DNA from: Polytrichum commune
Taxonomy: Eukaryota; Streptophyta; Polytrichopsida; Polytrichales; Polytrichaceae
Assembly (NCBI GenBank): GCA_950295325.1
Contig: OX485803.1
Coordinates: 56,993,554-57,057,553, forward strand
Length of the DNA stretch: 64,000 nt
Reading direction: 5' to 3'
Positions 3,698-63,740 of the stretch are shown one piece after another (the stretch's first letter is position 1; every line of letters starts with the position of its first letter). Both the position numbers and the translations under genes were made by a program. The notes below the pieces were generated by a model. The model was not told the origin of the DNA. It searched no databases and worked only from the letters and a program-made list of their open reading frames with translations.

Positions 3698-5444
3698 TGT
3701 GAGCCCAAAATGGTGCCCACATGTGGTGATTAAGTCTTCGAAACCAATTTTAGTGTGACTTTGATGTGCTATGATTATTCACAAAACATAAAGAGTGATA
3801 AAGAGTGAAGTGTGGTATGGATTTAAGTTTAGGCATTAGAATGTGTTGTGTAGTAATTTCAAGGTTTAACTTCAATAAGAGGATGCCTTGATTAGGTGAG
3901 TGGGGGGTAAGGTGAAGCAAGGTGAGCTCCGCGAGTTAAATGCCCACTTTTGGATCCACCTTGGTAGTTTGGGAAGAAGGAAGCTTGGTGGATGGGGATT
4001 AGTCCCTACTTTGGAGGAGAGGGTTAAAGGATTGTGATTGGAGGTGCCAATCCTCTCACCCTATCCTCACCTCTTTCCCCCTCTCTCCCTCTCTCCCTCT
4101 TTGCTACTTAAGGTGTTTTTTCTCTCATTTCTCTCTCTCTTCATCAAGCGCTCTCAAGGGAGCAAGCTCTTAAAAGCTTGAGCTACGCGTGTAGGACATT
4201 AGTTTTTAGTGAATTTAATTAGTTAAGTTCTCTCTCTCAATTCCTCTCAAGTGGAGTGAGCTCTTAGAGCTTGAGACAACATGTGGGGATTAGGTAGTTA
4301 TTTAGTGGAATTAGTGGGTTAGATTAATTCATTAGTAAAGGATCGAAAACAAAGACTTAGGGAAATGCTCGATTAGCGGCTAGGGGAGACTGTATCAAGA
4401 GGCAACTGGTTAACTGCGGCTGCGACTGCATTGGAGGCAGCTGGTTAGCTGCAGTTGCGACTGCATTGGAGGCAGCTGGTTAGCTGTGGCCGGGACTGTA
4501 TCAGGAGGCAGCTGGTTAGCTGTGGTTGCGACTGCATTGGAGGCAGCTGGTTAGCTGTGGTTGTGATTGCATTGGAGGCAGCTGGTTAGCTGTGGTTGCG
4601 ACTGCATTGGAGGCAGCTGGTTAGCTGTGGCCGGGACTGTATCAGGAGGCAGCTGGTTAGCTGTGGTTGTGAGTGCATTGGAGGCAGCTGGTTCGCTGTG
4701 GCCGGGACTGTATCAAGAGGCAACTGGTTAACTGCGGCTGCGACTGCATCGGAGGCAGCTGGTTAGCTGTGGTTGCGACTGCATTGGAGGCAGCTGGCTA
4801 GCTGTGGTTGTGATTGCATTGGAGGCAGCTGGTTAGCTGTGGCCGGGACTGTATCAAGAGGCAACTGGTTAACTGCGGCTGCGACTGCATCGGAGGCAGC
4901 TGGTTAGCTGTGGTTGCGACTGCATTGGAGGCAGCTGGTTAGCTGTGGTTGTGACTGATTAGTTTATATTATTACATTAGTTTATAGACTATATTAGACT
5001 ATATTAGTTTATAGATAAGTAGTTGGCCACATTAGGTTAGATGGAGGCACGTGTGGGTTTCATAAGTAATTGCACTTAGGATTGATTATGGGAAATAGCG
5101 TTTTTTAACGCTTGTATCCTCTCTATTAAATAAATCAAGTGCACAAGTAATGGAGAAGGTGGAGGACTTCCGCGAGGGGAAGACAAAGGAGGTTGGGTCA
5201 AAGTATGCAAGGGGAAAATCATTGAGGGCATGTGCGGCTAAAGCCGCGGGTTGGACTCTTGAGAAAGCCAACTCTAGCACAAGCCAAGAGGCCAACATTA
5301 ATAAAGTACAATGAGTGAGACAATGCATGTTCATTTAAACATGAAAATCACCTTGCATATGGTTCCATGTTGTGATAGATAAATGTGATTCTCAAAGTCA
5401 TCACCCGGACTAGGACGCTTAAGGGTGGTGGATTTGGTCTCACA
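3698..5444 (+). mobile_element. Solo-LTR-like element, copy 1
   Basis: The element begins TGTGAGCCCAAA and ends TTTGGTCTCACA. It is flanked by the perfect 5-bp duplication CAATG (3693-3697 and 5445-5449). TG...CA ends with a 5-bp duplication are the signature of LTR-retrotransposon integration. No internal coding region or second LTR is present, so I read it as a solo LTR or a gene-less derivative. It has a pyrimidine-rich CTCTCT tract near 4075-4145, a GCGCTCTCAAGGGAGC stretch after it, and an AATAAA-like signal near 5300. It shares both ends and most non-repetitive sequence with the element at 23455-25362 and, more distantly, with 41049-43693 on the minus strand. Confidence 0.82.
4399..4958 (+). 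repeat. 35-bp minisatellite inside LTR copy 1
   Basis: About 16 head-to-tail units of roughly 35 bases, each containing GAGGCAGCTGGTTAGCTGTGG then a variable GACTGCATTG or GACTGTATCA end. Variant types recur in blocks, indicating multi-unit duplications. The period is not a multiple of three, so it is not a coding repeat. Confidence 0.9.
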
Positions 5445-19830: not shown

Positions 19831-20262
19831 AATTTGCAAGTGTAGGGGATTCTTATCTAACACTATATTCGTTAATTGGAGACTTTTGAAAGTCTCAAAA
19901 TAAAATATGCCCATAGTTTGGGATGCCAATATTGTGGGCATACGGAATATTGGAAACATCAAGAACATGACGATTTAAAAATTCGTACGTAAAGGATATT
20001 CTTATTACTAAAAATAGAGAATTTCAATTAAAATGAAAAGTGAGCTCCATGTGGAAAATAACAATCCACTCCAAAAAAAAACAAATGGTTTATGTCATTA
20101 TAGAGTTTGGGGTGCGCATCCCATAAGTAAGGCTCTTATGAATTTGGATGGCACATCCCAAACGTATACCACAATGGAGTGTGACAAGTCCACTAAGTCT
20201 ATTAAAAACCAAATCTACTAATCGCCCATGTTTTTCGCCATTAACTCCCACCTATGTTATGT

Positions 20263-23200
20263 TTACACATCTCCATCTTCCGCTTCATATCCATTCTCGA
20301 CGTCATTTTCTGCCGCTGCAATACGTGCCAAGTTGTCTTTGGCAAAATCTATATGTTTTTGGGGGATGGTCATTGTTTCTGTTTTGGACCCTTTGCGCGG
20401 CTTCCAAGCACAAAGTATAGTATCCGTGTTTATCCAAACCGGTGTGTACGCTGAGTCCACTGTCCACTTAAAATTCTTTTTGGTGTCCCAACCTAAATAA
20501 GTGCGTAACACGTTCTGGTCTTTAGTACTTGGACAACAATATTCCACCTCAATCTGACGAAAGTTGGGGCTAGTTCAAACAAAATTGGGTGAAGACAATG
20601 CTTTCACCAACCAAATTGGCTTGGGATGTTCCTCATCCCCTGCTCGTACAAGGACCAAATAACCTTCATGGCAATCAACACCTACATGAAACGACGGTGC
20701 CGGTCGATTGCGGGCAGGGCCAACGTAATGCTCGTCCATTGCGAACTCTTCACGAACGTCTCCATTGCTAAAAACCATGGTGTCGGACTCGACAAACGGC
20801 AAACGACTTTGTGGCCAAAATCCTTGTGTTAAAGTTGTACGGATGTCACCACCAAGTGTCATTAGGGCGGAACGAATGCGATCCCAATACGCAATCAAAG
20901 GTTCATGAGTATCTCTAACACATCTAGTAATGTCCTCCTCACACAACTCTTTCCAATATTCAATGAATCCGGATATGCCTTTGATGATTTCCGGCCCATT
21001 CCTCATGGGGTCGGGTTTGCAAGGCTTTGGATCCCCATCCGGGAGCAAACATTTGCCATCATTGTCTTGACGCCATACAAGTATACCATCATCCGGGCCC
21101 CAATTAGGAGATGTGCACAAAAGCTTGAATTGCATGGCTAGCAGACCATCATCCCTTATATAGAATCGGAATTGTTGTGCTTTGGTATGCCCCACCAAAC
21201 GGTCCCCTCCCTTCAACATGTATGACTTGATGAAGGCCTTGAAATCTGGTACTTCCTCAATCATGTGCGGAATTACTGGCATATGGTCCAAATCCATATA
21301 CGATTTCATAAAAAGAGATATGGTTGGAAAATCTTCTTCATGCAACTTCATGCTCCACCGTCCGAATGATGCATCAATGTCGTCGTGTGTATGTCCCACC
21401 ATAAAAAATGACACAAACACCTCCTTGAAGATTCCTTTCGCCACGAGCAATGACCAAAAACAAAATACATATCGACATTTGTTGTCTTTCGCGCAATTAT
21501 CAAGTTGAACGTGAAGAGTTGGAGGCAATGGTTTTGCACAAATAGGTTCTCCCGGTGGTTCTGGCAATGACGACATACAAACCTCCTTCCCCGCAAGCAC
21601 TGCTTCGTAAAGGGGTGTCGTTCCACAACCATCAAAAAGTGCACGTGATGAATGTAACGGCAGCTTCTCCAGATCGCGCAAGAGTTTGCAAATGAACCCA
21701 CTGTGTGGTTAGCATCGCCAGGGTAAAAATCCAACCCATAATGGGCATACTTTACGTCTCCATGGCCGTGGGCAATCATCCCTGCGGAAAAAAACAAACG
21801 ATGCTTGAACAACAACAATAACAACGACAACTCCAAACGGAGGTATGAAATTGGACATTTGACAAACATACCCAGTAAAATTTGAGAGAATTTGAATACA
21901 TATTTGTGATTCAATACAAACCTGTGACAGATACGGGCAACTTGAAGAGACCATCCGTGGCCTTTATTTTGCGTGCATAACAAGGGCATGCGGTCTTGGC
22001 GTGGTCCATTTTATCATGGATGATTGTTAGAACCTCTGTAGGCCTCATTATGGATAGAGCATGGTTCTTGTAGTAATCTTGACGGTGAGCCTCTTGGTTG
22101 TTGACATGTTCAATATATTTTGCTTGGTGTCTAGTGTAGGATTCGGTGCCTATAGGGTGGGCGTTTCGAAGACCTTTGTATTTTTCACACGTCGTACACC
22201 TAGCGAACTTGTACCCAGGTCTCTTCAAAATGTATTCGGCAAACTGTTGGTTTTTAATCACACTCAACTTGGACAAAGAAATGGGCCCACATCCCGCTAT
22301 ACGACCCACTTCATTGATGTCCGTTAATATGTTCTTCCATTTTGTACCCGTGGGCAACACCATTTGTACAACTTTCTCCCCTGACGACAATGTCCTCGTC
22401 TTGTGGGGCATTGCATCGGCCAATGGGACTATGATGGTGGAGAGTGTCGCGGAGGCTTGGAGTGTAGCCTCCCTAGATTTCTTTGTGCCCGAATTGCCAT
22501 GAAATCGAGAGCGGCGACCCAACGATGAATACTTTTGAAACCTATAAAAGTCAGACTTTGACACGGCGTGGATAGTATACCACGCAGTACAACACACTTC
22601 CACATTTTCAAGTGTGACCACCTTATGCCCATGGGTGTCAATGTGGACATTTCTGTGGACCTCGAGTTTCTTTGCCGATCTCATACGGAAATCCGCAAGC
22701 CACATCTCTTGACGTAGGGACTTAATTTTCTCCCGCGGGAAAAATTGGCAACATTTCCTCTCGCAACAGTCCTTGGCGGACACAAGACGGATAGATTCGT
22801 CTCCCAATATGCGATCCCGTCGACGTTATTTATCTCCACGAGGCACACGGTTAAAATCATATCTGTGTAGGCCTTTGCGAGGACGTATTTTGGCCAACAA
22901 AGCTAATTGCGTTTGCTTATGGCGGCGCTCATGGTCCAACAAGCTTACTCCGTCATGGAGAACCCGACAAAGAGGCCATCGACGTAAAGAAAATCTCCAT
23001 GTCACCGAGACGTCAAGCGGAAGCAAAGAATTCAAGATGCACACACCCACATCATCGGGACCAAGGGGGTTGGCATCCACACAATCACGGGGATCGGAGT
23101 TTCTACATATGCCATCTGCCACCGGGATACCAACATCGTTGAAAAGAACAACATCAAGGCCCACCCATTGCTCCCTACCGAAACCGGCACATAACGGAAT

Positions 23201-23398
23201 GTCATCATTGTCATCCCCGGAACGTATAGATTATTCGTGCGCTTCAAATGATTCGTGGGAGGATGCATCCACAAACCCACCCATGGCATTTGCCATGCCA
23301 TGACTACCCGCCGATGCCGAAGATAGTTCACAGTCACCATCGGAAGAGGAAGCTTTTGTGGACAACTCCAATGAACTATATCCAACGTGCATCGCCAT
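20263..23398 (-). pseudogene. DUF7869-type transposase-like gene, broken
   Basis: Two exons are predicted: 23398-21922, then an intron with GTTTGT donor and TTCCGCAG acceptor, then 21781-20263. The product would be about 1,000 residues. Visible features are a CTTCEKYKG zinc-knuckle-like stretch, a D-x-N motif (VQLDNCAKDN), then GHTHDDIDASFGRWS, the pattern I associate with DUF7869 proteins of plant and oomycete mobile elements. They are suspected DDE-like nucleases, though the activity is unproven. Breaks: in-frame TAA at 23231-23233 and 22826-22828, a probable 1-nt deletion near 21688 (FAN to LLRDLE), and an in-frame TGA at 20575-20577 inside what looks like a small duplication of SSPNF. It is therefore not expected to make a full protein. 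Its 5' end faces the palindrome cluster at 25.4-26.8 kb, now separated from it by LTR copy 2. A second decayed copy is at 5530-6310. Confidence 0.75.
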
Positions 23399-24104
23399 CC
23401 AACCTAAACAAACCACCAATAAATGACCAACACAACAACAACCGCAATGCATACTGTGAGCCCAAAATGGTGCCCACATGTGGTGATTAACTCTTTGAAA
23501 CCAATTTTAGTTTGACTTTGATGTGTTATGATTATTCACAAAACATAAAAAGAGTGAAGTATGGTGTGGATTTAAGTTTAGGCATTAGAATGTGTTGTGT
23601 AGTTATTTCAAGGTTTGATTTCAATAAGAGGATGCCTTGATGACGTGAGTAAAGGGTAAGGTGAGGCAAGGTGAGCTCCGCGGGTTAAATGCCCACTTTT
23701 GGATCCACCTTGGTAGTTTAGGAAGAAGGAAGCTTGGTGGAAGGGGATTAATCCCTACTTTGAAGGTGAAGGTTAAGGGATTGTGATTGGAGGTGCTAAT
23801 CCTCCCACCCTATCCTCACCTCTCTCTCCCTCTCTCCCTCTCTCCCTCTTTGCTACTTAAGGTGTTCTTTCTCTCATTTGCAACTCTCTCCATCAAGCGC
23901 TCTCAAGGGAGCAAGCTCTTAAAGAGCTTGAGCCACGTGTGTGTGACATTAGTTTTAGTGAAGTTAGTTAGTTAAGCTCTCTCTCTCAAGGCCTCCCAAG
24001 TGAGGGAGCTCTAGAGCTTAAGTTTACATGTAGTGATTAGGTGGTAGTAGCAAAATTAGTGTGTTAGATTAGTTCATGACTTAGGAGCAAGGAAAAGAAG
24101 AACA

Positions 24105-24126
24105 AAAAAAAAAAAAAAAAAAAAAA
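24105..24126 (+). repeat. Poly-A tract inside LTR copy 2
   Basis: A run of about 22 A residues just before the minisatellite. Copy 1 lacks it. Confidence 0.85.
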
Positions 24127-24199
24127 ACCTTTGATTAGTGAATTAGAGGGGTTGCATTAAGGGTAGCTAGCCAAATAGAATTAGCATATAGTCAATAGG

Positions 24200-24750
24200 A
24201 CCCTTGCTGGCCTTAGGATGTGGAGCCAAGACTGTAACCTTTGCTAGTTCAGGCTGTGGAGCCGAGACTGTAACCTTTGCTGGTTCAGGCTGTGGAGCCG
24301 AGACTGTAACCTTTGCTGGTTTCAGCTGGAGCAGCCGAGACTGCTGACCTTTCTGGTTCAGGCTGTGGAGCCGAAACTGTAACCTTTGTTGGTTTCAGCT
24401 GTGGAGCCGAGACCGTGACCTTTGTTGGTTTCAGCTGGAGCAGCCGCGACTGCTGACCTTCTGGTTCAGGCTGTGGGGCCAAGACTGTAACCTTTGCTGG
24501 TTTCAGCTGGAGCAGCCGCGACTGCTGACCTTCTGGTTCAGGCTGTGGGGCCGAGACTATAACCTTTGCTGGTTTCAGCTGGAGCAGCCGAGACTGCTAA
24601 CCTTCTGGTTCAGGCTGTGGGGCCGAGACTGTAACCTTTGCTGGTTTCAGCTGGAGCGGCCGAGACTGCTGACCTTTCTGGTTCAGGCTGTGGAGCCGAG
24701 ACCGTAACCTTTGCTGGTATAAGCTGGGCAGCCGAGACTGTGACCTTGCT
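24200..24750 (+). repeat. Approximately 36/72-bp minisatellite inside LTR copy 2
   Basis: Alternating half-units of about 36 bases: one with GTGGAGCCGAGACTGTAACC and one with GAGCAGCCGAGACTGCTGACC, joined by CTGGTT(T)CAG. It sits at the position in the LTR where copy 1 carries a different 35-bp array. Confidence 0.87.
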
Positions 24751-25453
24751 GGTATTAAGAGTACTAAGTTGTGGAATCCGAGGCTATCAAGGGGCCGCCG
24801 GTAACTAGGTGGGAGTTGTACCCATGGCTAATTAGACAGTTGGTAGAATTAGTGAGCTAAGGCTAAAATTGTGTGGAGGGTGCCACTAAACTACCCAATA
24901 GGGTGTTAGACCAATCGTAAACTAGAATAGTTATTAGGCAAGTGTTAGGCTCAATAGGATAGGCAAGGAGTGTGGAAGTCTCATATGATTAAATGTAACA
25001 TTGACTATAGAATAAAGTGTTTTTCAACACTTGCACCTATCGTTCAAAATAACTTACTTGCATTATTAATGGAGAATGTGAAGGACTCTTGCAATGGCAA
25101 GATAGATGGGGTGAAGATCAAAAGAGTAAGGGGAATGTCCGTAAGGGCATGCGCGGCTAAAGCCGCGGGTTGGACTCTTGAGAAAGCCAACTCTAGCACA
25201 AGCCTAGAGGCCAACATTAATAAAGCACAATGAGTGATACAATACGTGTTCATTCGAACATGAAAAATTCCTTGCATATGGTTCAATGTTGTAATAGATA
25301 ATGTGATTCTCAAAGTCATCACCCGGACTAGGACGCTTAAGGGTGGTGGATTTGGCCTCACACATACAAAAGTGGATACGAGATATGCCTACATATATGG
25401 CTGAAAAATCACAACCAACACTCGACACACCGTTGAGGGACCTCACATATGAA

Positions 25454-26759
25454 GACGAACGTGCGTTCGACAACAGCCCCATGACATACAAATCCTACAC
25501 GGGACTCAAACGTCCCTGCACAATGGAACCCCATTCCGATATATATTACCCATGAAGGGCTTTGGGTGGAGTCGCAAATAAAACATTGGAAGGGTTTTCC
25601 ACCACCAAGGGATAACACAAGCACATATATTCACGAACGCGAGGACGAAAACATCAACCCAATATACAATAAATTCTAAATGGAACATACTATAAGAGCA
25701 CCAAAAATATACTTGCCACTTTATTCACATGCAGTAAGCATCATATTTGAGGGGCGTGTATTTGATGGGCGAGTGTTTACGAACGATCGTTCGTTAGCTA
25801 CAGCCGAAATTGAGGGCTTATGTACACGAACGATCGTTCGTAAGTTCCAGCCGAAACATAGGGGCGGATGCATACAACCGATCATATGTATGTTACAGCC
25901 GTGACAGTGTTAGGCAAAAATGATTGGACACGTCCGAATAGAGATATCTATAGCCACGTTATAGGGATACATGAAATCCAATATCCAGTGGAAAATGACA
26001 ATCGACATCTATCACTAAAATCATGATTGAACAGATACGAACGAGCGTTCGTATCTATCATTAACACGGTGTAGTCCTCTACACATGCTTGCGTCAACAG
26101 GTCTGTTGGTGGATGCGTGGACGGTGGACAGGTGGTATTTACGAACGTGCGTTCGTAAAATTGGAAAACATAATTCTCCGTGGACATAAATGGTAGTGCG
26201 AAATACGAACGAGCGTTCGTATCTATCCTAAACATGGTGTAGTCCTCCACACATGTTTGCGTTAACAGGTCTGTTGGTGGATGCGTGGACGGTGGACAGG
26301 TGGTATTTACGAACATGTGTTCGTAAAATTGGAAAACATATTTCTCCATGGACATAAATGGTAGTGCGAAATACGAACGAGCGTTCGTATTTAACTTCCA
26401 TATTGTTAACGTGGCCAATGCACGGAAGTGTATAAATTAAGGAATGTTTATGGATTCTTGAAAAATAATCCCAGGTGATATTTACGAACGCACGTTCGTA
26501 AATATCCCATCATCAGATGTTCCGTTGGAGAAAACGGTTACACGGGAACTCATGCGCGTCTGGGTCTTGAAGGCATATATACGAACGTACGTTCGTATAT
26601 AATCGATACAATTTTCGTGCCTAGTTCTGTCTATAAGTAACTCAATGTCGAGTACGGTTGTGATCAACTTACGAACGCACGTTCGTAAACAATTCACATC
26701 ATCTCTATGTACCTCTTGTGCATGTGCTACCAACTCACGTTTACGAACGTGCGTTCGTA
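25454..26759. repeat. Palindrome cluster A, TACGAACGNNCGTTCGTA, 13 copies
   Basis: Eighteen-base dyads start at 25454, 25778, 25825, 25873 (degenerate), 26036, 26140, 26204, 26308, 26372, 26483, 26580, 26670 and 26742. The arms are mostly invariant while the central two bases vary (AT, AG, TG, CA, TA). The copy at 26308 has changes in both arms that keep the dyad (GAACA/TGTTC). The last copy extends to a 28-base dyad. Flanks are often TTT and AAA. Spacing ranges from about 47 to over 300 bases and is not uniform. No gene is recognised within the cluster. Confidence 0.95.
26036..26371 (+). repeat. 168-bp tandem duplication carrying two palindromes per unit
   Basis: Units 26036-26203 and 26204-26371 are near-identical (GTGTAGTCCTC.ACACATG, GGACGGTGGACAGGTGG). 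Each carries one palindrome at its start and one 104 bases in. A third unit starts at 26372 and ends quickly. This shows how some palindromes multiplied locally. Confidence 0.9.
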
Positions 26760-29030
26760 AACGTCCGGTATTTGCGGCGGTATATACGGGTATGTGCAGT
26801 CTGTAGTGGACCTGGGAGGTGTAGGGTTGGCGCACAAGAAAATGGTTTGAGCGCGTTCCAGTCAGGTCTGTGGAGCGCACACTTGGATGTGCCGCAGAAA
26901 AGAGCTCTTCTGTGGGGGGAAGAGCTTTAAGTACCTTTCCCCCGATGGTTCAAAATCCCTTGGATGCTATTTAAAAAGCGGATTCCTACCGCCTACTTTG
27001 ACCTAACAATATGTCATTCCATCCATGCACAATATATAAATAGCATTATGTATGGAACATGTGTTGCGTGCACGCAACATATTGTAAATCTATAAATCCG
27101 TCGCACACCTTAGTTGTTACCAAGGTAGCACGAAAATATGTCTATATGTCTATATGTCTATATGTTTATATTTATATGTATATATATATGTATAATTTAT
27201 ATTTTACTATTTTATATATAGGTTATTGTATTATATATATATGGGTTGATGGGTTAATATTGAGTATTAAATTATTTGCGACTAAGGTGTGAAGTCCAAG
27301 TGAATTGATGAAGGTCTAAGTGATATATATATATTCACACACACAATGAGGTAAGAGTGGCTAAGAACATATTGTAGAATCCCCTAAAATTGTAGGTATC
27401 ATATGATTCACATAAAAAAAAATGCTTGTAATATGGTCACCAAGTGCATGAATACCAATAAAAAGTCGCTTAATCCATAGTGGCTTGTGCTAGGTAGATT
27501 GAGGACATTTGGAACTGGAGGCTCACCAAACATCGCCCCATATTAATATGACTCATTGTTGCAATTCATCATTGGTGAAAATTAAAGTTTAATGCACTAG
27601 TATTCGATCGTTAGTTCAAGTTGACACCTAATTAAATGACTTGACGTCCTATTGGAAATTCACTTTAGGTCCACCATGGTGTGAAAATGGATAACTAATT
27701 TGGAATGGTGCATACAATAGTATGCACTTACAATTATATATTTGTATTATTTGCAACAAGAAGTATGTGCATGACCATAGCTTAAACTGTTGATTTAAGT
27801 TGAAGTCTTAAACCATTCATGTTATAATAAGACTAAGTGTGTATTTTGTGATCAAATTGCACTCAAAACTATTAAGGTGAAAGGGCTAGCATTTCAAAAT
27901 TCACTCTTCACTCCCTAAACCAATGTTTTATATCAAAATGACAATTATTGGCATGAGTCTAGATTATTATAGTTGCTATGACCCAAATAAGGCAAGTTCC
28001 AATCGAACCAACATTGGTAGACCATTTTGACATGATGCGCATAGACCACAACATGGCCATATATAAGAAAGGTTGGTAAGACAAAAAGATGTAGGGTTTA
28101 GGGTTTGGGGTTAGGGTATAGAGTTTGTGAAAGTTGTCTATGTGGTTTGCGGGCTTAGGGTTTAGATCGTTACTTCAATGCATTATATACACAAACAATA
28201 TCGACTCCTAAATAATCCATATCGCACTAACTTAATTTATGGGAAGCTCATACTATCAATTATTGATACTACTAGCAAAACATACGACCACATGGCTAAA
28301 ATACACTACACTAAATATGATATTTAGTGTTTGATTGTATAATATAGTGTTGTTACACTATCATGGTCAACACTAAATTTCAATTCTTTGATAATTACTG
28401 TTGGACATATTAAATGGACCACCACATTTCCTACTACCATGTCCTTTATGCTTTTATCATTGTTAATTGTTTTTTTCATATTAATTTCCTTACACAAAAT
28501 TTGTGCATGCGACATCCACATATTACCATTATAGTTGAAATTAAGTGTTTGAGTTCACAATGAATAGTAGTTACTTTCATAGGGTTACTGATATTTAGTG
28601 TACTATGCGTTTGTATTTAGAGTATCTAACACTAAATATCATATTAAGGGTGGTTCAAGCTAACACCTCATTAAATTAATGACATCATATTGAAAATTGA
28701 ATTTTCATCCACCTCTTGTGGAGAATCAGATAGCCCCTCTCCACAATTCAAATTGAGTCATTTATATATGTAATATGTATTTGAGGAACCATTGAAGAAC
28801 TTTAAAGATGCCTCGTTCATGAAAACGACATTTGCATCTTGGGGGTGGATTCTTCATCGAAAACCTACTAAATGACATGAATTGTTAAATACAAATTATC
28901 TGAACATACTTTTCTAAAATATGTTTACAAGGAATCCATATGTCGAGGTACTAAGGGGATACGGAAAGTTAAATTTATGTCCCTAAACTAAGCTCCTCCT
29001 ATCTCCTATTTCATTTTTCCTGAACCCTCA
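26760..29030. other. AT-rich spacer, no gene
   Basis: It contains TATATG-rich stretches (27140-27240), a short run of telomere-like TTTAGGG variants (about 28090-28120) and the palindrome relatives at 28308-28645. I see no coding region. Confidence 0.55.
28308..28645. repeat. Possible MITE with ACACTAAATAT palindromic ends
   Basis: A perfect ACACTAAATAT/ATATTTAGTGT palindrome opens at 28308-28330. Related pieces GATATTTAGTGTA (about 28590) and ACACTAAATATCATATT (about 28629) close it about 340 bases later. No clear target duplication was seen. Confidence 0.45.
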
Positions 29031-29039
29031 TCCCTCCAT

Positions 29040-29262
29040 GTCCCCATGGTATCCCCTCATCCCCATCCCCTCCCCCTCCCCCTCCCCCTCTCCCATCCCA
29101 TCCTCATCCCATCCTCATCCCATCCCCCTCCCCTCCCCATCCCCTCCCCATCCCCTCCCCCCCATCCCCCCCATCCCCCCCATCCCATCCCATCCCATCC
29201 CATCCCCTCCCCATTCCCTCCATCCCCATCCCCATCCCCATCCCCCTCCCCCATCCCAGCCC
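29040..29262 (+). repeat. CCCCAT/CCCCTC simple-sequence tract
   Basis: About 220 bases of CCCATCC and CCCCTCC repeats. Open frames across it on both strands are low-complexity artefacts. It lies just upstream of the predicted promoter and leader of the gene starting at 30847. Confidence 0.9.
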
Positions 29263-29943
29263 TAGCCAGTGGCCACTAGCCACGTGGCTGCCGCTTGGAA
29301 ACCCTAGCGGCGCCGACTACCTCCCCGCGCCCCTCTCTCTCCTCCTCATTTGTCATTTGGAGTAGAGGAGGAGAGGAGCTCTTAGGTGCGGCGAAGCCCT
29401 TGCCAATTTTAGAGCCTCATTGTGAATGTTGTTTTGTTGTGTTGTCAGAACCTTGAGAATAGGAAAGCTAGAGAGTAGGAAAGGTCGAGAGGTTGAGAGT
29501 TATAGAAAGCTTGAGAGGTTGAGAGTTATAGAAAGCTTGAGAGGTTTAGAGTTTTAGAAAGCTTGAGAGGTTTAGAGTTTTAGAAAGCTTGAGAGCTTGA
29601 GTTTTAGAAAGATTGACAAGTGGAGAGTTTTAGAAAGGTTGAGAGCTTGAGAGTTTCAGAAAGGTTGAGAGCTTAAGAGTTTTGGAAAGCTTGAGAGCTT
29701 GAGAGTAGGAAAACTTGAGAGCTTGAGAGTTTCAGAAAGCTTGAGATTTCTGAAGGTTGTGAGTTGTGTACATCAGGGTTTGTGTAGGATTTGCATATAA
29801 GTTGTGAAGGCTTGAGAGTGTGACAAAGTGAAATTGCAATTGAAAGCGAATTCAGCGCTTTTGAAAGACAATTTGGTGTGCATTTGTGAGGATTTCTGGA
29901 TTTCTCAGTAGGAGGCAGGAGGTTTTCTGTGCAACAATTCAAT
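29263..29943 (+). promoter_or_regulatory. Predicted promoter and 5' UTR exon of ParB/methyltransferase-like gene
   Basis: GC-rich sequence with AAACCCTAG and CT-rich stretches resembles a plant core promoter and leader. A purine-rich transcribed-looking stretch ends in the strong donor AAT|GTGAGT at 29944. The matching acceptor CTCTGCAG lies at 30839-30846, directly before the ATG at 30847. This implies a 5' UTR intron of 903 bases that carries seven palindromes. The transcription start is not determined. Confidence 0.5.
29459..29755 (+). repeat. 26-bp minisatellite in the predicted 5' UTR
   Basis: About eleven units of the form GAGAGGTTTAGAGTTTTAGAAAGCTT, with GAGAGCTTGAGAG variants. The strand is strongly purine-rich. 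Confidence 0.85.
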
Positions 29944-30306
29944 GTGAGTACAGGTTTCCTTTACAAATCAGTCCTTCACAATCTGAAATTGTTGTTTGAT
30001 GAATTCCTTGTGATTTGTTTTCTGCATTATGAGGTATGGCATGTTTTGTATGAAATAACACTTTCCTCTTCATTCTGAATTATCAATCACTGACTCGCAA
30101 TTTTGTTCTGATTCCATTTTTCACTTGTGTTTCATCAATCTGATCACGAGTTGCAGGTTCATGAACAATGCAAGATCGCAACATTCATACCAACATATAT
30201 ACGTATCCGTATATGTATATGTACGGATATATATATGTATATAAATAAATATACCATTTCCTAATCCCAGATGACCAACACAAACATGCCTTACCCCACA
30301 AACATA

Positions 30307-30814
30307 TACGAACGTGCGTTCGTAAATACGCACCTCACCCTCCATTTTTACGAACGCACGTTCGTATATTCATCTATACCCTGTACATCAGACAAATCCT
30401 CAAATCAAATTACACATACAAAAATACGAACGAACGTTCGTAATCACAAACTATAACAATATACCAAACCCTTCATTGTAATTGTCTGCTTTCCCTAATA
30501 GCATAATTTACGAACGCACGTTCGTAAATAAGAACTAAAGTATTAATTCACCTATTTCGAAGAAGCTCATGGAAATTAGAACAATCCTCGTGGAAATTAG
30601 ATAACCCTGGACAACGCGTAGACTTGTTTAGAAACAATACGAACGCACGTTCGTAAACTTTAGCCAAATACACCTTAGCAACCACATTCTTTACGAATGA
30701 TCGTTCGTAAATGAAATCAGCGAAGACATAATTAAAACTCCTCCGGGTACCCATAGCCAGCGTTCATTGATTAGTATATATGATTTGCTTGTCAATTACG
30801 AACGCTCGTTCGTA
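30307..30814. repeat. Palindrome cluster B, seven copies in predicted 5' UTR intron
   Basis: Copies of TACGAACGNNCGTTCGTA start at 30307, 30349, 30425, 30509, 30638, 30692 (one arm GAATG) and 30797. The central dinucleotides are TG, CA, AA, CA, CA, AT and CT. The last one ends 32 bases before the start codon. Confidence 0.95.
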
Positions 30815-30846
30815 AACACAATACTAAATGTTTATGTGCTCTGCAG

Positions 30847-33800
30847 ATGGCTAGACCGAGCAGGAGCGCCATTGAGATGTTCGCAGTGCAGATAGATCAG
30901 CTTCCAGAGTCAGTGTCCGACCCCAACGGAAACGATAATTATGTCCCGAAGGAGGACTTCATTGGGGAATGGACGGCACTGCCAGAGAAGACATCAGACG
31001 GTCTTTTCTGTCTTCGCTTCACCTACGAGCTGGAAACGACGCCGGACCAACCAGAGCAATGGGTGCAGATGAAGACTTGGGAAGTAGAATCAATTGAGGC
31101 ACAAGGAGATTATGTGATTTTAGACATGAAAAATAAGAAGGATCACATTAACCTCCTGTTAGAGTACAGGAGACATAGTTTCTCCTACACATACGCAGAA
31201 AATAACGTAGTGGCTGATGCCAAACACTTCCTCAAGGGCATGTTCACGAAGTACGCCCTGAGCTCGTACTGGACAACAAGGAAGTTGGCCGCGCTTTCCT
31301 TGAATATCTCCAAGTACAATAGCGCGGTCGCCGAAGCCAACAAGAAAAAGAAGAGCATACGAAAACCATCCGCATCCGGGGCAGGAGGATCGAGAAGTGC
31401 ACCCAGGCCGGTGCCTTCTGCGAGTAGGGTGACGGAGGGTCCCAGCCGATATTCCACGCCATCGAAGAGGTCCCGGGACGAAATGGAGAGGTCTGGGGTA
31501 ACAGAGGGCGCTGAGGTGAGCTCTCCTCCCCTGATGCCAACCCCTTTAAAGAAGGGTGAGAATCCAGATGCAGTGAAGGCAACAAAGATCCTACGAGATT
31601 TCAATAATTACTCAAAGGATTGCTGGCCCATGGGGCGCCACTTCACGTTCAACGTGGACTGCTTCAAGTGCGAAAAGTCCCCCAACAAGTGGGTGGTAAG
31701 GTCTCGCGAGAGCGGTGGGGTGAAGTGGCAGATCAACAACCTCATGAACAACGTCAAGTGGGATAGGCAGACCGTCTGCGTCATGCCCAAGGGGTTGACA
31801 TCCCGACCGACAGAGATGGATTGGCCGCGAATCCAGAATGGAGAATTCTGGATTATAGATGGTCAGCATAGCTTGAAGGCGTCGCAACAGATCCTCAAGG
31901 ACGACAACTTCCAGCACGAGCTGAAGGCTAACCTGCGGTACTGGAAGGCGTTCTTGGTCTGGTTAGACGATTGGGACAAGCTGCGCAAGACTTCAACCTT
32001 CCTGAACTCGGGGAACAAAATCAAGGCGTTTGAGGCTTCGTGGGCGGCTAACATAGTGGCTGCGAGAGACGTCTGGGTGGCACACGGATGCCCACCAAAG
32101 GAGAGGGAGAACGCCAAGGACCAGTCTCCTCAATGGAAGGTGAGTTTACGAACGAACGTTCGTAAAGTGTTGGACTCACGAAAACATCAATTACTGACTC
32201 AATTTACGAACGTGCGTTCGTATTATGTGCAACACTGACATCTTGTTTTGTGCAGGCATTTTGCGACGTGATGGTAGACAAGTTCTCTTCCATCGATATG
32301 AAGTCCACCACCACAAAGTCTGTGCTTGAGCTGAAGGGTGAGCTCAGACTCATCTGCTGCAACAGGGACACTTGGGACTTGTGGACCCAGTTTTTTGATG
32401 CACACAGCTCGGGCGATTTGGTCAACCCCAACACGGAGGAGAAGTACAGCACGGAAAAAACCGGTGAAGCGCCCCCACTACTGAGGGAGTTCTTTAGACA
32501 CCTCCAGGGATTGACGGAGTCAGAGCTGAAGAGGTGTGCGATTCATGTTCTTGGGAATACCGTGGGAAGAACCCTTCCCTATCCCAAGATCTTTTTGAAG
32601 AGGCCAAAGCACAAGCCCGGCACGTACTCTATCAAGGAGTGGTGTGACCACGGGAAGCTGAAGACTGCAGCCATGAGAGAGTTGAGCGTACTCGTACCAT
32701 AGTACAAAATCTTTGAAGTCGACGGCGACATCAACTGGCCGCAATGGCAATTGTTAAAGGTCGACTACAACATCAACAGAGCCTCCATGCGCAGTCTGGT
32801 CAAGGAGCACGCCTCGGTTTTGAAGTTGAAGGGGAACAAAAGAACTAAGAAAACCGACATGGATCCCCATGAGGTAATGCTATACTTAAAATTTTTGGAG
32901 AAGAAGAGGAACGCCACATTCGAAGGAATGGCAAGGTTTTGCGTGATCACCTCCGGCGTGGAGAGGGTCACATTTTCCAAGTGGGACAGCACCATCAGCA
33001 GGGCCGAGGTGAGGGAGGATCGACGGGGTTGCCCTTTTGCCCTCATCGATTTCAGGGGGATCCTGGGTGCGTCAAGGCAGGGGGGGAAGGACATTCCCTT
33101 CTACAACCCTTTCATGGCCAAGTTCATGGAGTTCAAATCGCCGGCCATGAGGGAGCCACACGTTTGGCTGTGGATAGTCGAACAAGAGAAGCTGTCGGTG
33201 GTCACAGAGTTGTACGAGCAGAAGATCAAATTCGAGTACAACATCTTCCACAGCACGTACGTGCCAGCGAAGACGGAGGGGATCGTGGCCATCAACGAGG
33301 CCAGGGGCAACAAGCAGGTGGGAGCGGTCAGCCTGATTTTCTTGACGTACAATGAGCTAAGGGATGGGCGACCGCCTATCAAGGCAAACAACACGTTCAA
33401 GAAAATCTACAGCATCCCGCATCCCCCTCCCAAGGATCTGCTGCAAGAGACCCTCTACACCGTCTTCCCCGCCATGGAACTCAGGATGGAGTTCTACGTC
33501 TCTGTATTGCAGAGTCTGGTTATAAGTGGAGAGACGGTATACAACGTATGTGGAGGCTCCAAATTCATGTATGCGGCCATGGTAAGTTGTCCAGACTCCA
33601 TTTACGAACGCTCGTTCGTAAAGTTAACCAACTTCTCAATGTATTGTTTCACAGTCGCTGCACGTGACGCATTCATGTTTACGAACGCTCGTTCGTAAAC
33701 ATAACCCCTTCGTAATGTAATGCTTGAAACTCGTTGCACGCTACGCTTTGATGTTTACGAACGTGCGTTCGTATTTTCTGACCTTATTGCTCTCTTCTCA

Positions 33801-36599
33801 CAGATGATGGGTCTCGTAGTCAACACATTCGTTGACGCTATCGACGAAGAAGACTTCAAGATCCACCGTGCGAAGGCGTCGACGATGGACCTCAAGGACA
33901 TCTGTGTCCCCAGGATGGACTTCAGTATGCCCGCCGACGAGGGCATACCATTCCACGATTCTGAGGACGACGAGCCCACCCCCTCCGCCAACGTGGACGT
34001 CATTCTGCAGTCCTTCGACGTACCCCCACTTCGGATCTTGCCGCCAACGACGGATCTTCCCGATCCTCAAGGGACGCCGGGTGGTTATACCGGGTCGTCC
34101 GCGGGGACAACCCTGGACGTCCTCCCCGCGAGAACATCTCTTGCAGAGCCTTTTGGAACGCCAGGCGGATGCTCGACGTCACAGTCTCCAAGGCCCGCCG
34201 TGGTTCCGAAGATGGAAACCCTGGACATCCTCGACCAACACTCGCGGCCATCTTTGGACCTCTTCCGCAACACGAGGAGGAGGATGAAGAAGACTCCATA
34301 TGTGGAGTTGCCGCCGGGAGCAATCATCGAGGTCTCGGACGAAGACGAGGGGGACATGGACATCATGGCCGAGCTTGGCGTGGACTACGACAAGAACAAG
34401 CGGGTGAAGGAGGAGGCACTCACCGTCGCTGAGCTCAACGCCAAGCTAGAGGCGAAGATGAAGGAGGAGATGGCTACAGCACAGGAGGAGAGCGCCAAGC
34501 ATCTGGCCAGGCTGCAAGAGCAGCTGAGGGATTCAGCGGCCAAAACCGACGCCATCTTCGAGATGCTCAGAAACATGCAGAGCCTCTCTGCGCCGGTCCA
34601 GCAACCTTACCCCTTCCCCCCTGGAGGATACCCCTCACAGCCCCCACCTCCAGTCATGTACCAAGGAGGGCCTTCCCACCAAACAGCGCCACACCCAACG
34701 CCGGCGGGAAGTCCATTGCCCCGGGAAGTGACGGCGGCCGCCTCAACCTCCCACGATGCAATCACGGCGGCGCTAAGGGAGGACGAAGATTTACGAACGC
34801 GCGTTCGTGAATCTTCAGGTCCGGCAGTCCTCACCCCTCCCCCTTCAAGGGTAGGACTGCCCACAGACATCGACACGGCCTCTTTCACCGTCGTCCCAAG
34901 GGTTCTAGATAGGCGGGGCGATGACACTGCGCAACACACTGACATGGTCATTGTGGAGGAAACGCAGGGGAGCCCCAATGACTCGGCAGGTCCGCGTGGG
35001 ATGGTCGTGGAGAGCCCTGACCAGGAACGACATCCGTCCGCGCACATGGAGGATGTCCGCATGGAGAGACTCGACCTGGGCGGGGACGACAACGTGGAGC
35101 TCATCCAACAGACCCAGTCGTCTCAGGAGGAGCGTCCAGCGGAGGTCATGGAAGCAGAGGCTGCTTCCCCAATGGAGTTTGTGAACGCGCGTTCGTTAAT
35201 CAAAGAGGTAACTCATCTCTGAGAATGCCAAATGTTTTACGAACGCGCGTTCGTAACATCACTAACCCCCCGCGTTGTGTTCTTGGCGCTTCAACTCCAT
35301 CGACATCACGTTGCCCGCGCGAGCATTTTTCTACGTGATCGCTTGGGCCGATCAATTTTGTAGGACACTGCATTTTTTCCTTAGGAAATTGTGATAGATT
35401 ATCACGCGAGACAAATGTACATATTCACCGAATTAATATATGAGCAGACGATCTCTGCTTGCATCCCCTAAACTTATTGCATATTCTCGCGTCTTGTGTT
35501 GTCTGTGCTCTTGCGCGTCCTTGCATTCTTTGCATGCACACCTCACTCACGAACGCTTGTTCGTAAAACTGTGCGACCCCGTCTTGACCTCCTTCGCGAA
35601 CGAGCGTTCGTATATGTATGCATCCGCGCTCACGAACGAGCGTTCGTAAATGATGCGCACCGCCCCGCAGCCTTCATTCACGAACGGTCGTTCGCAATTG
35701 TGCCCTTCTGAACATTTTCCTTGCACCCTCCTCACTTCCTCCTCTTTTCCCATAATGCATCGTCTTTATTTTCAACGCAACAATTTCTTTATTGGATCAT
35801 AGAATTAAACTAGTCGCGTTGTTCATCACAGGACCCCCCGGAGATAGGTCGCAACCCCTCGACCAGTGGACCTCGAACCCGGAACAAACCGTTCCTCGTT
35901 TTTTACCTCAACGGGGTGTTGTGTCACACCCAACACATCCCAAGGGTCCCCACGTGTCCCTTCCGTCACCCCGACGAAAGGGACTACGACGGCGAGCTCG
36001 ACACCCTCATTAACCGCAAGGCTGTCCGCGCCCGTCCCGGCCTGCGGGACTTCCTTCGCGAGGTGGTCGAGTTCGCCCACGTCGTTGTGTGGAGCTCCAT
36101 GGTCATGGAGAACACGGAGCCCATCGTCCACTTCTTGTTCCGTGATCTCCCGAGCCCTTGCCTCGTCCTCGGCCAAGAGGAATGCGACGAGCTGCTCGAC
36201 GAGAAAGGCCGACCGGTGCCCAAGTTTGGCGGTCGAGGCGGAGGACAACAGTTCCTCAAGGTCCTCCGTTCAATACTATGGCAAGGCGTCCCCCGTCTGC
36301 ATGGGACGCCCCACGGGTGGTGGCCGACTCCTGAGAACACCCTCCTCATCGATGACAGCCCCACCAAGAGCGTCTTGAACCCCCCGGGCAACGTCATCTT
36401 CCCGGACACTTGGACCGGCGATAGGCAAGACACATTTTTGGTCGATAGGCTAGCCCCCTACCTTAGAAGGCTCGTGCTCCACGCCGGTAGCATCCCATTT
36501 TTTGTTAGGTCCAACCCCTTCGGCAATGCGGCACTAAGCCCCCGCGATAATGTATTCAAGAGCATCATGAGGCTCGCCAAACTCAATAAATTGATTTGA
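30847..36599 (+). CDS. ParB-like / DNA-methyltransferase-like / FCP1-like multidomain protein
   Basis: Exons 30847-32139, 32256-33581, 33804-35207 and 35832-36599, joined by GT-AG introns that are all phase 0; 1,596 codons if one in-frame TAG (32700-32702) is counted. Residues about 280-430 contain WIIDGQHSLKAS (337-342), resembling the G-Q-H motif of ParB-like nuclease domains. Residues about 600-900 resemble a beta-class N6/N4 DNA methyltransferase: ALIDFRG (696-699) where DPPY is expected, then VYNVCGGSKFMYAAM (861 onward), like the AdoMet-binding D-x-F-x-G-x-G motif, running across an intron into MMGLVV. ParB-methyltransferase fusions are known in phages and bacteria. Residues 874-1341 are acidic, with a coiled coil (about 1075-1133) and proline-rich stretches. 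The last exon is FCP1-like: LVFYLNGVLCH has Tyr1366 where the aspartate nucleophile is expected, then VVVWSS and LLIDDSP (1515-1516). The domains are visible; whether one transcript joins them, and whether any is active, is inference. Confidence 0.68.
32147..32222. repeat. Two palindromes in intron 32140-32255
   Basis: Copies start at 32147 (centre AA) and 32205 (centre TG). The first begins seven bases after the start of the GTGAGT donor, so an RNA hairpin would sit against the 5' splice site. Confidence 0.95.
33603..33773. repeat. Three palindromes in intron 33582-33803
   Basis: Copies start at 33603 (CT), 33680 (CT) and 33756 (TG). The intron has a GTAAGT donor and a TTCTCACAG acceptor. 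The palindromes take up about a quarter of its length. Confidence 0.95.
34786..34817. repeat. Palindrome inside coding exon, 32-base dyad
   Basis: The 18-mer at 34792-34809 (centre CG) is extended by GAAGAT/ATCTTC flanks into a 32-base dyad with one arm mismatch (G for A near 34809). In frame it reads EDLRTRVRES within the proline-rich linker, so it is translated without a stop. Confidence 0.9.
35180..35197. repeat. Degenerate palindrome at exon 3' end
   Basis: The core GAACGCGCGTTC is intact, with altered outer arms (GT before, GTTA after). It reads VNARS in frame and lies 10 bases before the exon's predicted donor at 35208. Confidence 0.85.
35238..35696. repeat. Five palindromes in intron 35208-35831
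   Basis: Copies start at 35238, 35548, 35595, 35631 and 35679. The last four have one altered outer base each (CACG or CGCG starts, or a CGCA end). Centres are CG, CT, AG, AG and GT. Confidence 0.93.
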
Positions 36600-36712
36600 A
36601 ATGCATCCATGTCTTTGCTTGTTATCATGTGGTTCACATATCTAATGCTTGCTCTGTTTTTGGATGTTTGTTTTTGTTTTTTTGTTGTTCTTGTTCTTGT
36701 TCTTGCCCATAG

Positions 36713-37698
36713 TCTGCCCCCATATGCGACGCCCCTGTAGTCGATGGCCCTTCCCGTCCCCTCTCGCCCCCGGCATCCCCTTCCCGCGACGTCACGGACT
36801 TCCAAATGCCATCCCTCTACCACTTCTCGGCGGTCGACGCGGCCTCGGCCGTGGATTACTCCCGCGACGTCGGCATCGACGACGGCGTTGTCAACAGCCC
36901 GCCCCCAGCACTTGTCCCCCGCGCGTACGCCCCGTCGCCCTCCCCCCTCTCCAAGGAGAAACGGACGCTCGTTCGTTTGGGGCACCTCTCGCCCTCTAAG
37001 GACGACGGCGTCGCTCGTCGCGGGCCGAGCCGGCGTCTCCGCATGGAAGGCCCCCGTTGCCACACCTCCCCCGCCGACTCCGTTCCTCCCCCCGCAACGT
37101 CCTCCGTGATCGTGGGCCCTCCACGCCTCGACTCCCCCCCGCCATCCAACAGTGCAATAGTTCCATCGGCTCCGGATGCTCCCGTCGACGCCCCCCTCGT
37201 TCCCACCGTTCCCCGCATGGACGTCCCCAAAGCCAAGGTGCCCTCCTCAACCCTAAACCCCTTTCCCGCTTTTGTTTTGCTTGTCTTCCGTGTGCGTGCC
37301 GTTCTCTTTACGAGCGCCCATCCCAAACCGCCCTCATTATTTTCCCCACTCCATTCCTATTCTTATCTTCCTATGACGTTGTTTCGCAGGTGGCTACCCG
37401 CTCGCTTGGTGCCCGGCCCTCCTCCACATCCTCCTTGGATAGGCACGCCCTCAAGGCCGCATCTTCCGAGTCCGATCGTTGTCTGGCCCTCCGGAGAAGC
37501 GCAAGACGTTCCCTTTCGCAAACGCCCTCGTATTCTACTTATAATACCACCTCGTACAATTCGGGAGCGCGTCCTGAAACATGCAAGAACGACACATATT
37601 CCTGTCCAGGCAACACACAAGGATACAGTCGTGGGCCTGAGATTTTTAGAGCCATGGAGGCCGCCAAAAAAAAAGGACTTAGCCGCAAAAAAAAATAG
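36713..37698 (+). CDS. Downstream exons, Ser/Pro-rich protein with basic tail
   Basis: After a pyrimidine tract and CCCATAG acceptor, 36713-37237 is open in phase 0 and Ser/Pro-rich. It may join across a weak GTGCCC donor to 37390-37698 (TTTCGCAG acceptor), ending in KKKGLSRKKK and a TAG at 37696. The preceding FCP1-like exon stops at 36597 with AATAAA at 36585, so these exons are either a separate gene, an alternative 3' end, or part of an ancestral longer gene. A degenerate palindrome (36958-36977) lies in the first exon. The same phase-0 splicing and GC-rich codons link it to the upstream gene. No domain is recognised. Confidence 0.4.
36958..36977. repeat. Degenerate palindrome in exon
   Basis: AAACGGACGCTCGTTCGTTT matches the family with one changed base in the left arm. 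It is translated as KRTLVRLG. It is the last family member seen before the family disappears from the window. Confidence 0.75.
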
Positions 37699-38349
37699 TG
37701 GGTCGGACTAGTGTGACTAGAAGCGTACTAGTGGGACGGACTCCCTAAATGCTTAGGTGTAGAACATATTTAAGTGCTTACTTTCTAGTATGCTATTCCA
37801 AGTTACTCAAGACATTGATGGTATTTCCATTATAATTGTATTTCAATCCCAATTAATTCATTCAACTTCCATTCATTCTTTGCATCTTCCCTTCCATTCA
37901 TAACGAGTTGTCATTTCATACGCAACTATTTTCATGTATGCCTCACATTTTTGTTCACTTCCATGCCTTTATGTATAATAATAGTAGCATACCATTATAC
38001 ATATGGGATTTTTAGTCGTCATTACTGGTCCAATTTTGAAATGTGCATCCTTATATAGTCTCATAATCAACAAAAAGTCTCCAATTACCGAATATAGTGT
38101 TATCTGATGAAAATATGATTATATCATAAGATCCATGCATAATAAATTTCCTTATTTTTCTTGTATTATTCATTGCTTGCGACAAAATGTATTGCTTAAT
38201 ATCAAAAGTTATTAAGGGCGAAAGAAGAAGGTCCAGGGGGGGACATTGTTGATGAATGTTATTGTTCAAAATAAAAATGATTTAAAAAATTAGATCTTAC
38301 AGGCACACGTCTATAAAATGTCCAATTACAAGTAGTTGAGAAACTCACC
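37699..38349. other. AT-rich spacer between convergent copies
   Basis: Composition drops sharply from the GC-rich exons to AT-rich sequence. It lies between the plus-strand gene and its inverted decayed paralogue. It would include the paralogue's intron that follows the donor at 38344-38349. No palindromes and no gene. Confidence 0.55.
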
Positions 38350-47109: not shown

Positions 47110-47815
47110 CCTACATTGGGTGCCCATACCCATGCCCATGGGTTTTGGGTGGGCATGAGTGCGATATTATTGTTCATGGGTGGGCATGGGTGGGCATGGC
47201 TGCAATATTATTGTTCATGGGTGGGCATGGGTGGGCAAGGGTGCGATATTATTGTTCATGGGTAGGCATGGGTTCAATATTATAATGGGCGGGCATGGGT
47301 GATCATGAGATCATTGCAGCGGTGAGCTTAGCATTGCCAATGAATCGGGATACCACTACTAAATTCAGTATTATCTTGTGGTGGATGCTGAAAGGAGCCC
47401 CCACATTCCCCATCATGTGGCGCGTGGCGCGTTCGGTTTTGTGCATCCCTGCATCCAACTCCAAATCGGAGTCAAACTTCTCGGATGCAGGGAATACGCT
47501 AACCAAGAAGCACTTCAGGCTGAAGCCAGCGATAGTGAACGACCTTTTACTTGTCCGATCCAATCAAGACTTGGTGTAGGCGGGTAATACACATTACACA
47601 ATTTTTGAATACATGGGCGCAATTTGAATAGCATGGGTGGGCACGTGTCATGCTATGTGTGGGCATGGGTGGGCATGGGTGGGCACATGTCATGCTATGT
47701 GTGGGCATGGGTGGGCATGGGTGGGCATGGGTGCGCACATGTCATGCTATGGGTGGGCACGGGTGGGCATAGGTCGCTGCTGATGGGCATGGTCTGGGTA
47801 TGGGTGCAATTTAAA
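47110..47815 (+). mobile_element. Internally deleted hAT element, C-terminal exon left
   Basis: 47295-47579 encodes the hAT dimerisation region: WWMLKGAPTFPIMWRVARSVL, SNFSDAGNTLTKKHFRLKP and DLLLVRSN, matching the usual L-A-x-x-x-L-x-I-P-x-S, F-S-x-x-G and R-x-x-L-x-P pattern, with no N-terminal or catalytic part. Both sides carry GGGTGGGCATGGG repeats (47100-47290 and 47635-47810), and the outermost parts contain roughly inverted CCCATACCCA motifs. This is the expected form of a deletion derivative keeping its ends. A clean 8-bp duplication was not found. Confidence 0.7.
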
Positions 47816-63377: not shown

Positions 63378-63740
63378 TAGTTTCCATTAAAATGAGAGTA
63401 TGTTAAGCTAGGAAATCGACTCATTTAGGTCGACTCAACCTAAATTGACAACATATTGTCCTCATTTAGGTCGACTCAACCTAAATTGACAACATATTGT
63501 CCTCATTTAGGTCGACTCAACCTAAATTGACTAACATATTGTCCTCATTTAGGTCGACTCAATCTAAATTGACTAACATAATTGTCCTCATTTAGGTCGA
63601 ATCAACCTAAATTGACAACATAATTGTCCTCATTTAGGTCGACTCAACTTAAATTGAGAACATAATGTCCTCATTTAGGTCGACTCAACCTAAATGAATT
63701 GATTTCCCAGCTTCACATACTCTCATTTTAATGGAAACTA
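63378..63740. mobile_element. Foldback/MITE element with internal hairpin array
   Basis: Arms of about 52 bases, 63378-63429 and 63689-63740, are nearly perfect inverted repeats (TAGTTTCCATTAAAATGAGA at the outer end). Between them are seven head-to-tail units of 41-43 bases. Each contains CATTTAGGT then ACCTAAAT, so every unit can fold as its own small hairpin. No target duplication was identified and no protein is encoded. Confidence 0.8.

Follow-up and report, generated by a model that had tools for sequence, protein, structure and literature searches.

Family-specific palindrome arrays in a DNA transposon of Polytrichum commune, candidate recognition sites for a predicted ParB-like protein

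The stretch of DNA considered here, in the following called the window, comprises 64,000 nucleotides of Polytrichum commune (GenBank assembly GCA_950295325.1, contig OX485803.1, positions 56,993,554 to 57,057,553 of the forward strand; coordinates given without a contig are those of the window). It contains many copies of an 18-bp palindrome in and around a gene on the plus strand, the plus gene, and the first-pass annotation, made from the letters of the window, read the locus as a spliced gene accompanied by the palindromes. What was missed is that the locus is a high-copy DNA transposon with terminal inverted repeats (TIRs) and not a host gene, and that the genome contains hundreds of copies of it.

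The transposon and its two divergent genes

The copy in the window (W) has AACACTATATTCG inverted at both of its ends. Two other copies, A (contig C1) and B (contig C2), are 99.46% identical over 16,115 bp and have unrelated flanks; W aligns with them piecewise from 19857 to 38105. A 4-bp target site duplication (TSD) was found in 13 of 15 readable end pairs, namely at A, W, G, H and C640k and at eight of nine further copies of family F1 (the families F1 to F5 are described below); it was not found at B and at L029/L030, and a tenth further F1 pair (L041/L042) has no recognisable right end. The left TIR occurs in the genome 199 + 183 times with up to two mismatches, and at least 150 matches to plus-gene exons (of 947 first-look candidates), at least 149 to the NIF exon (of 1,267) and at least 150 to DUF7869 (of 1,492) were scored. 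A host gene family was considered and is ruled out because of the TIRs and TSDs and because of the recent, near-identical copies. The transposons form a large group that was recently active. The 4-bp TSD agrees with that of the Sola superfamily, the transposase being classed here by its DUF7869 profile only. No viral relative was found in an IMG/VR scan with exon 2 of the plus gene as sole query, and no phage relative for exon 1 of F3; exon 2 of F3 gave one chance match (E 8).

Two side observations concern the history of the group. The left 3.6 kb of W (19857-23454) are 91% identical to A and the middle pieces (26461-33697) 69-82%, and because the left part is so much closer to A, W looks mosaic, as if modules had been exchanged between families. 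In F2, the 494-amino-acid exon 1 of L007 (contig C6) was scored in 87 copies, and 28 of these encode a protein of 100% identity (rounded), which is a very recent burst.

The element has a transposase-like gene on the minus strand and, divergent from it, the plus gene, which is predicted to be spliced (Table 1). The minus-strand protein of A matches PF25273 (DUF7869) at 4e-40 in a Pfam scan, and against PDB sequences the transposase gave two chance matches only. The plus gene of W is to be read as disabled because there is an in-frame stop at 32700-32702 in exon 2; other copies with this exon open exist. Outside F1, exons 1-2 of the plus gene were recovered with 34-41% identity in F2 and 39-54% in F3, and in F4 exon 1 (26%, E 6e-8) and the NIF exon (E 3e-29) were matched.

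Table 1. Features of the transposon copy W, in window coordinates
Feature	Position	Strand	Basis
Whole TIR DNA transposon W, 18.2 kb	19859..38101	.	TIR AACACTATATTCG; alignment to two other copies
4-bp TSD ATCT of W	19855-19858 and 38102-38105	.	read in sequence
Transposase-like gene (DUF7869, PF25273), two open stretches	20269..23452	-	86% identical to copy A
12 palindromes between divergent transposase and plus gene	25454..26759	.	motif scan
5' intron of plus gene, 7 palindromes (30307-30814)	29944..30846	+	GT..AG read in sequence (predicted)
Exon 1: PH-like beta domain (weak) and ParB/sulfiredoxin-like domain with DGQHS motif	30847..32139	+	predicted model
Intron, 2 palindromes	32140..32255	+	motif scan
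Exon 2: helical part, then degenerate permuted DNA methyltransferase-like stretch (by eye)	32256..33581	+	
Intron, 3 palindromes	33582..33803	+	motif scan
Exon 3, in-frame palindromes at 34792 and 35180	33804..35207	+	motif scan
Intron, 5 palindromes	35208..35831	+	motif scan
Exon 4, NIF/FCP-like phosphatase domain	35832..36596	+	PF03031 3.5e-14
Degenerate palindrome (3 mismatches) in further downstream open frame	36960..36977	.	motif scan

Palindromes in the window and across the genome

A scan of the window for TACGAACGNNCGTTCGTA with up to three mismatches yields 32 copies, all within 25454-36977, whereas 100 shuffles gave 0.06 matches on average and never more than one. The first-pass annotation had counted about 33 copies, thirteen of them upstream of the gene; the array and its upstream part are there, with 32 and 12 copies, respectively. 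It was right in placing seventeen copies in the four introns (7+2+3+5), two in one coding exon (exon 3) and one further downstream, where the copy has three mismatches and lies in an open frame, and in seeing none elsewhere in the 64 kb. By these predicted gene parts the non-coding sequence of the element has 3.1 palindromes per kb and its coding sequence 0.34. Many of the sites are arranged in tandem with periods of 34-168 bp.

The two palindromes in exon 3 (34792-34809 and 35180-35197) are translated in frame as LRTRVRES and FVNARSL, and the same exon of A has palindromes with one mismatch that are translated as LRTRVRES and VTNARSL. Because they are in frame in W and have these counterparts in A, they may be under a dual constraint, as coding sequence and as sites. 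The window also contains minisatellite arrays that are unrelated to the palindrome, two of them inside the transposon (24200-24753, periods 36-109 bp; 29479-29746, 26-102 bp) and three others at 4399-4957 (35-141 bp), 47146-47774 (10-52 bp) and 63420-63695 (41-126 bp).

When diverged elements are aligned, the arms of the palindromes outlast centre and flank. For example, between G and L022 the arms are 95% identical, the centre 44% and the flank 49%; between W and A the values are 74, 41 and 48% upstream and 88, 79 and 61% in the 5' intron (81, 61 and 60% in the reverse reading), and between L018 and L020 they are 93, 85 and 87%. It should be noted that the motif in one member of each pair decided which sites were compared, and that the alignment may be anchored on these sites; the centre is therefore a fairer control than the flank. 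A simple tandem repeat is ruled out because the arms outlast both. The conserved arms and free 2-bp centre that had been described for the window were thus met again in diverged pairs and, with the fifth imperfect, in five motif families. Copy 26308, which had been singled out for matched changes in both arms that keep the dyad, has these changes; since both inner CpGs became CA/TG, they are explained by two ordinary CpG transitions and do not count as evidence of covariation. Of the two readings then offered, the binding site of a dimeric protein is supported by the symmetry and conservation of the arms; for a recombination site nothing was seen, no test having been aimed at one.

The claim that the palindrome is confined to one locus is correct for the window and not for the genome, in which there are 4,680 perfect copies of TACGAACGNNCGTTCGTA (family F1) and none of the reversed control pattern. 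Among the first 100 F1 places, as read by eye, 96 lie in clusters with a match to the plus gene or the NIF exon or in the element at C1:639070-648560, and four do not; an even spread away from the gene was therefore not seen among them. This 9.5-kb element (L009+L010) has both TIRs, the TSD CATA and 44 palindromes (up to three mismatches), and almost all of its coding sequence is gone. It is non-autonomous, and by expansion its palindromes have come to form tandem arrays of 34 bp and 160 bp.

In addition to A, B and W, 13 DUF7869 loci were sampled. Four of them are copies of the families g502 and g692, two of each; for the other nine, 6 kb of sequence lying upstream of the DUF7869 domain were taken, in some cases extended. 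Unsupervised counting of dyads brought out palindromes in all of these except L023. Five motifs, the fifth of them imperfect, cover all 13 loci. Read from the centre, the half-sites are CGTTCGTAAA (F1), CGACCCAAAC (F2), CGTCCGTAAA (F3), CACCCGTGGG (F4) and TGCCTCACC (F5, in which the fifth base is T in only 55%), and the five superimpose base on base. They have a common design of 8-10-bp arms and a free 2-bp centre, which together make a dyad of 18-22 bp. Perfect dyads with 8-bp arms are commonest at a spacer of 2, which in F2 and F5 is equalled by a spacer of 4; owing to nested arms, other even spacers score as well, and odd ones yield 0-3. The sequences of F1, F2, F4 and F5 contain no exact or one-mismatch copy of the motifs of other families. 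Perfect sites in the genome number 10,011 for F2, 1,382 for F3 and 953 for F4, again with none of the reversed controls, so that F1 to F4 together have over 17,000; a degenerate form of F5 occurs 315 and 320 times on the two strands. The F5 sites include 59-bp arrays (in L023 and in L024+L028) of near-palindromes in which one arm is consistently different, and elsewhere in the L024+L028 stretch there are a few perfect copies.

In F1 to F4 the sites are found at matching places: upstream of the transposase, before exon 1 and in later introns. Each of the five families has a distinct array, and four of them also have a plus gene of clear homology, whose product is predicted to contain a ParB-like domain. 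No report of family-specific palindromes in such transposons was found in the open-licence literature searched. These palindromes are the new part; a ParB-like accessory gene of a transposon has already been reported.

The plus-strand protein and the role of the palindromes

A relation of the plus-strand protein to ParB could not be established from sequence searches alone, which gave weak hints at the level of PHROG ParB-like (E 0.019), GmrSD_N (E 0.054) and DGQHR (E 0.09). An AlphaFold model of exon 1, for which an alignment of six sequences was used, has a mean predicted local distance difference test score (pLDDT) of 52.5; for residues 271-380 the means of ten residues range from 55 to 81. 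When this model was searched with Foldseek, the top eight hits were all ParB (probability 0.97-1.00, best E 4.7e-3). In a second structure search (VIA) the top 13 were all ParB, Noc, KorB or PadC, with 90-106 residues aligned, a root-mean-square deviation of 2.1-3.9 for 12 of them and of 5.0 for the last, and Z 8.9-7.5, where VIA warns that a Z under 8 can reflect merely a common arrangement; a serine kinase and sulfiredoxin followed at Z 6.5-6.2. The product of the plus gene is therefore predicted to have a ParB/sulfiredoxin-like fold, if a weakly modelled one. G339, Q340, H341, A345 and N387 are invariant among the six exon-1 sequences.

Which of the two proteins goes with the palindrome is indicated by a comparison of A with W, which has the same palindrome, and with F3, which has a different one. 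From A to W the transposase is 86% identical, plus-gene exons 1-2 83-87% and exon 3 65%; from A to F3 the transposase is 88% (over 232 amino acids) and 78% (over 440) identical, plus-gene exons 1-2 39-54% and exon 3 33%. As judged from these sequences the motif follows the plus gene and not the transposase, because the transposase of A resembles that of F3 about as closely as that of W, although plus gene and motif differ between A and F3.

ParB family proteins bind parS as a dimer, and VANC is an established transposon-encoded, sequence-specific anti-silencing system. The plus-strand protein is probably the binder of the palindromes. With somewhat less assurance, and still in preference to any other account, we consider the palindromes to be parS-like recognition sites in cis for this transposon-encoded ParB-like protein, serving anti-silencing. 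Anti-silencing as the purpose, taken by itself, is slightly short of an even chance, and VANC-like sequence-specific anti-silencing or self-regulation would be the likeliest role. A dimer of the protein would bind the two half-sites, like ParB at parS, and would load at 20-45 sites over the upstream region and the introns, and the coated or opened chromatin would keep the two divergent genes of the element expressed despite silencing by the host. Protein and palindrome would diverge together in each family, and therefore each family would act on itself and its non-autonomous derivatives. The most far-reaching version, a ParB-parS-like code of self-recognition evolved by giant transposons of eukaryotes, in which a clamp loads at the 20-45 palindromes, spreads and shields its family from silencing, with co-diversified specificities that set up private groups, can be offered only tentatively.

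The sites could also be operators by which the two divergent genes are autoregulated, through KorB-like repression or activation and without an anti-silencing role. This would suit the predicted ParB fold and the fact that the stretch separating the divergent genes, together with the 5' intron, has the most sites (19 of 32 in W; 32 of 42 in G with at most one mismatch), but sites are also present in the later introns and in exons, a long way from promoters, and the array persists in the element that has lost most of its genes, so that we regard it as unlikely. Somewhat less likely again is that the sites are marked with N6-methyladenine or N4-methylcytosine by a ParB-methyltransferase fusion, as has been proposed for algal transposon proteins: a 21.5-kb Sola-1 element encodes, opposite its transposase, a ParB-like protein with an N4/N6-methyltransferase (PMC12477816), and exon 2 of the plus gene, read by eye, has methyltransferase-like strand patterns and looks like a degenerate permuted methyltransferase; yet the catalytic DPPY is, by eye, absent from it, and Pfam, NCBIfam, PHROGs and a PDB profile search gave no methyltransferase match.

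A slightly smaller probability still is given to sites for the transposase or a transposition helper, like the TNPA sites of En/Spm. Every one of the DUF7869 loci sampled has an array, the derivative without most genes has kept its own, F4 has one site (one mismatch) at a distance of roughly 0.2 kb from the left end, and F2 has degenerate copies with 3-4 mismatches in its last kilobase; nearly all good sites are nevertheless internal, the first of A being 3.9 kb from the left end and the last, bar one copy with three mismatches, 2.4 kb from the right end, and the motif differs between A and F3 as described. Passive repeats, spread by tandem duplication or as mini-insertions, would account for the tandem arrays, but not for arms that are alike in diverged pairs where flanks and centres differ, nor for the symmetrical switch of motif between F1 and F3: the purine/pyrimidine position which separates these two is asymmetric in 118 of 6,180 sites, where about 2,200 would be expected under independence (owing to the relatedness of the copies, these are not independent events). 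Such an origin is highly improbable.

Several observations weigh against parS-like sites for the plus-strand protein. Canonical ParB nucleotide motifs are GERR/ENxQR, and the motif here is atypical, GQHS and not GERR. The AlphaFold model, with six sequences behind it and a mean pLDDT of 52.5, is weak, none of the Foldseek E values is below 0.001, sequence search found no significant ParB match, and in the poor model of exon 2 (pLDDT 37) no helix-turn-helix is visible. In F5 the plus gene is a weak match (E 0.005), and the copies of the palindrome are imperfect, 34 of them in L023 by a mismatch scan, and mostly so in L024. Exact sites of F1, whose motif is one step away from that of F3, occur once or twice in two of the three F3 stretches, and the dissociation of motif and transposase comes from three elements. 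The close pairs L018-L019 and L017-L021 show no difference between arm and flank. Within elements, matched changes in the two arms are in the minority: over six elements, changes were matched in 5 and unmatched in 13 of 18 copies with two mismatches. CpG retention is 0.56 in non-coding sequence of the element versus 0.39 and 0.43 in the rest of the window, a slight excess only and weak evidence for low methylation.

If anti-silencing by parS-like sites is true, it would be a second transposon-encoded system of this kind besides VANC, with protein machinery unrelated to it, and the ParB fold would gain a role in the chromatin of eukaryotes. The code is legible in that the motif can be read by eye and occurs in five variants in one genome. 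At least four of the variants each occur with a separate version of one gene, and the co-evolution of protein and motif is therefore directly testable by swapping.

Comparison with known systems

In En/Spm, too, a DNA transposon has a large number of short motifs, the TNPA repeats, which are specific to the element and bind a protein; they are found in subterminal positions and are not palindromes with a free centre. With ParB-parS, Noc-NBS, KorB and VirB the present system shares the predicted ParB-CTPase fold, many dispersed palindromes and a presumed dimer, and it differs from them in being a eukaryotic transposon with an intron-rich gene, the atypical GQHS and a NIF domain in the same gene. 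VirB, a relative of ParB, counters H-NS silencing (PMC10653881). The commonest eukaryotic protein with a ParB fold is sulfiredoxin, and ParB folds of phages are often fused to N6/N4 methyltransferases (PMC12704722).

One close parallel is Sola1-1_Ec32 of Ectocarpus, together with similar transposon proteins of green and red algae. The 21.5-kb Sola-1 element is, like ours, a giant DNA transposon in which a ParB-like protein, there joined to a methyltransferase, is encoded opposite the transposase; proteins of this kind have been suggested to bind the transposon that encodes them and to modify it (PMC12477816). A methyltransferase is not demonstrable here, and the NIF domain is extra; the string "palindrom" is absent from the main text of that paper.

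The other close parallel is VANC of the VANDAL elements, Mutator-like elements (MULEs) of Arabidopsis (PMC5735166; PMC10398659). VANC motifs are non-palindromic 8-9-mers, whereas the dyad here has 18-22 bp; VANC is a DUF1985/DUF287 protein, and neither domain is among the Pfam matches of the plus-gene exons, where a predicted ParB-like protein is encoded beside a DUF7869 transposase; and demethylation has been shown for VANC, whereas the present system is known from its sequence. The organization is nevertheless much alike. VANC21 binds YAGTATTAY in introns and in intergenic and terminal non-coding regions of VANDAL21, the target sites are arranged as tandem repeats, the motifs of VANC6 are different ones, and the transposase of VANDAL elements is more conserved than the accessory protein (PMC5735166). 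Here, too, the element encodes a protein, in our case a putative binder, and has arrays of motifs in non-coding regions and introns and in tandem repeats; related elements have different motifs, and the transposase is more conserved than the protein encoded beside it.

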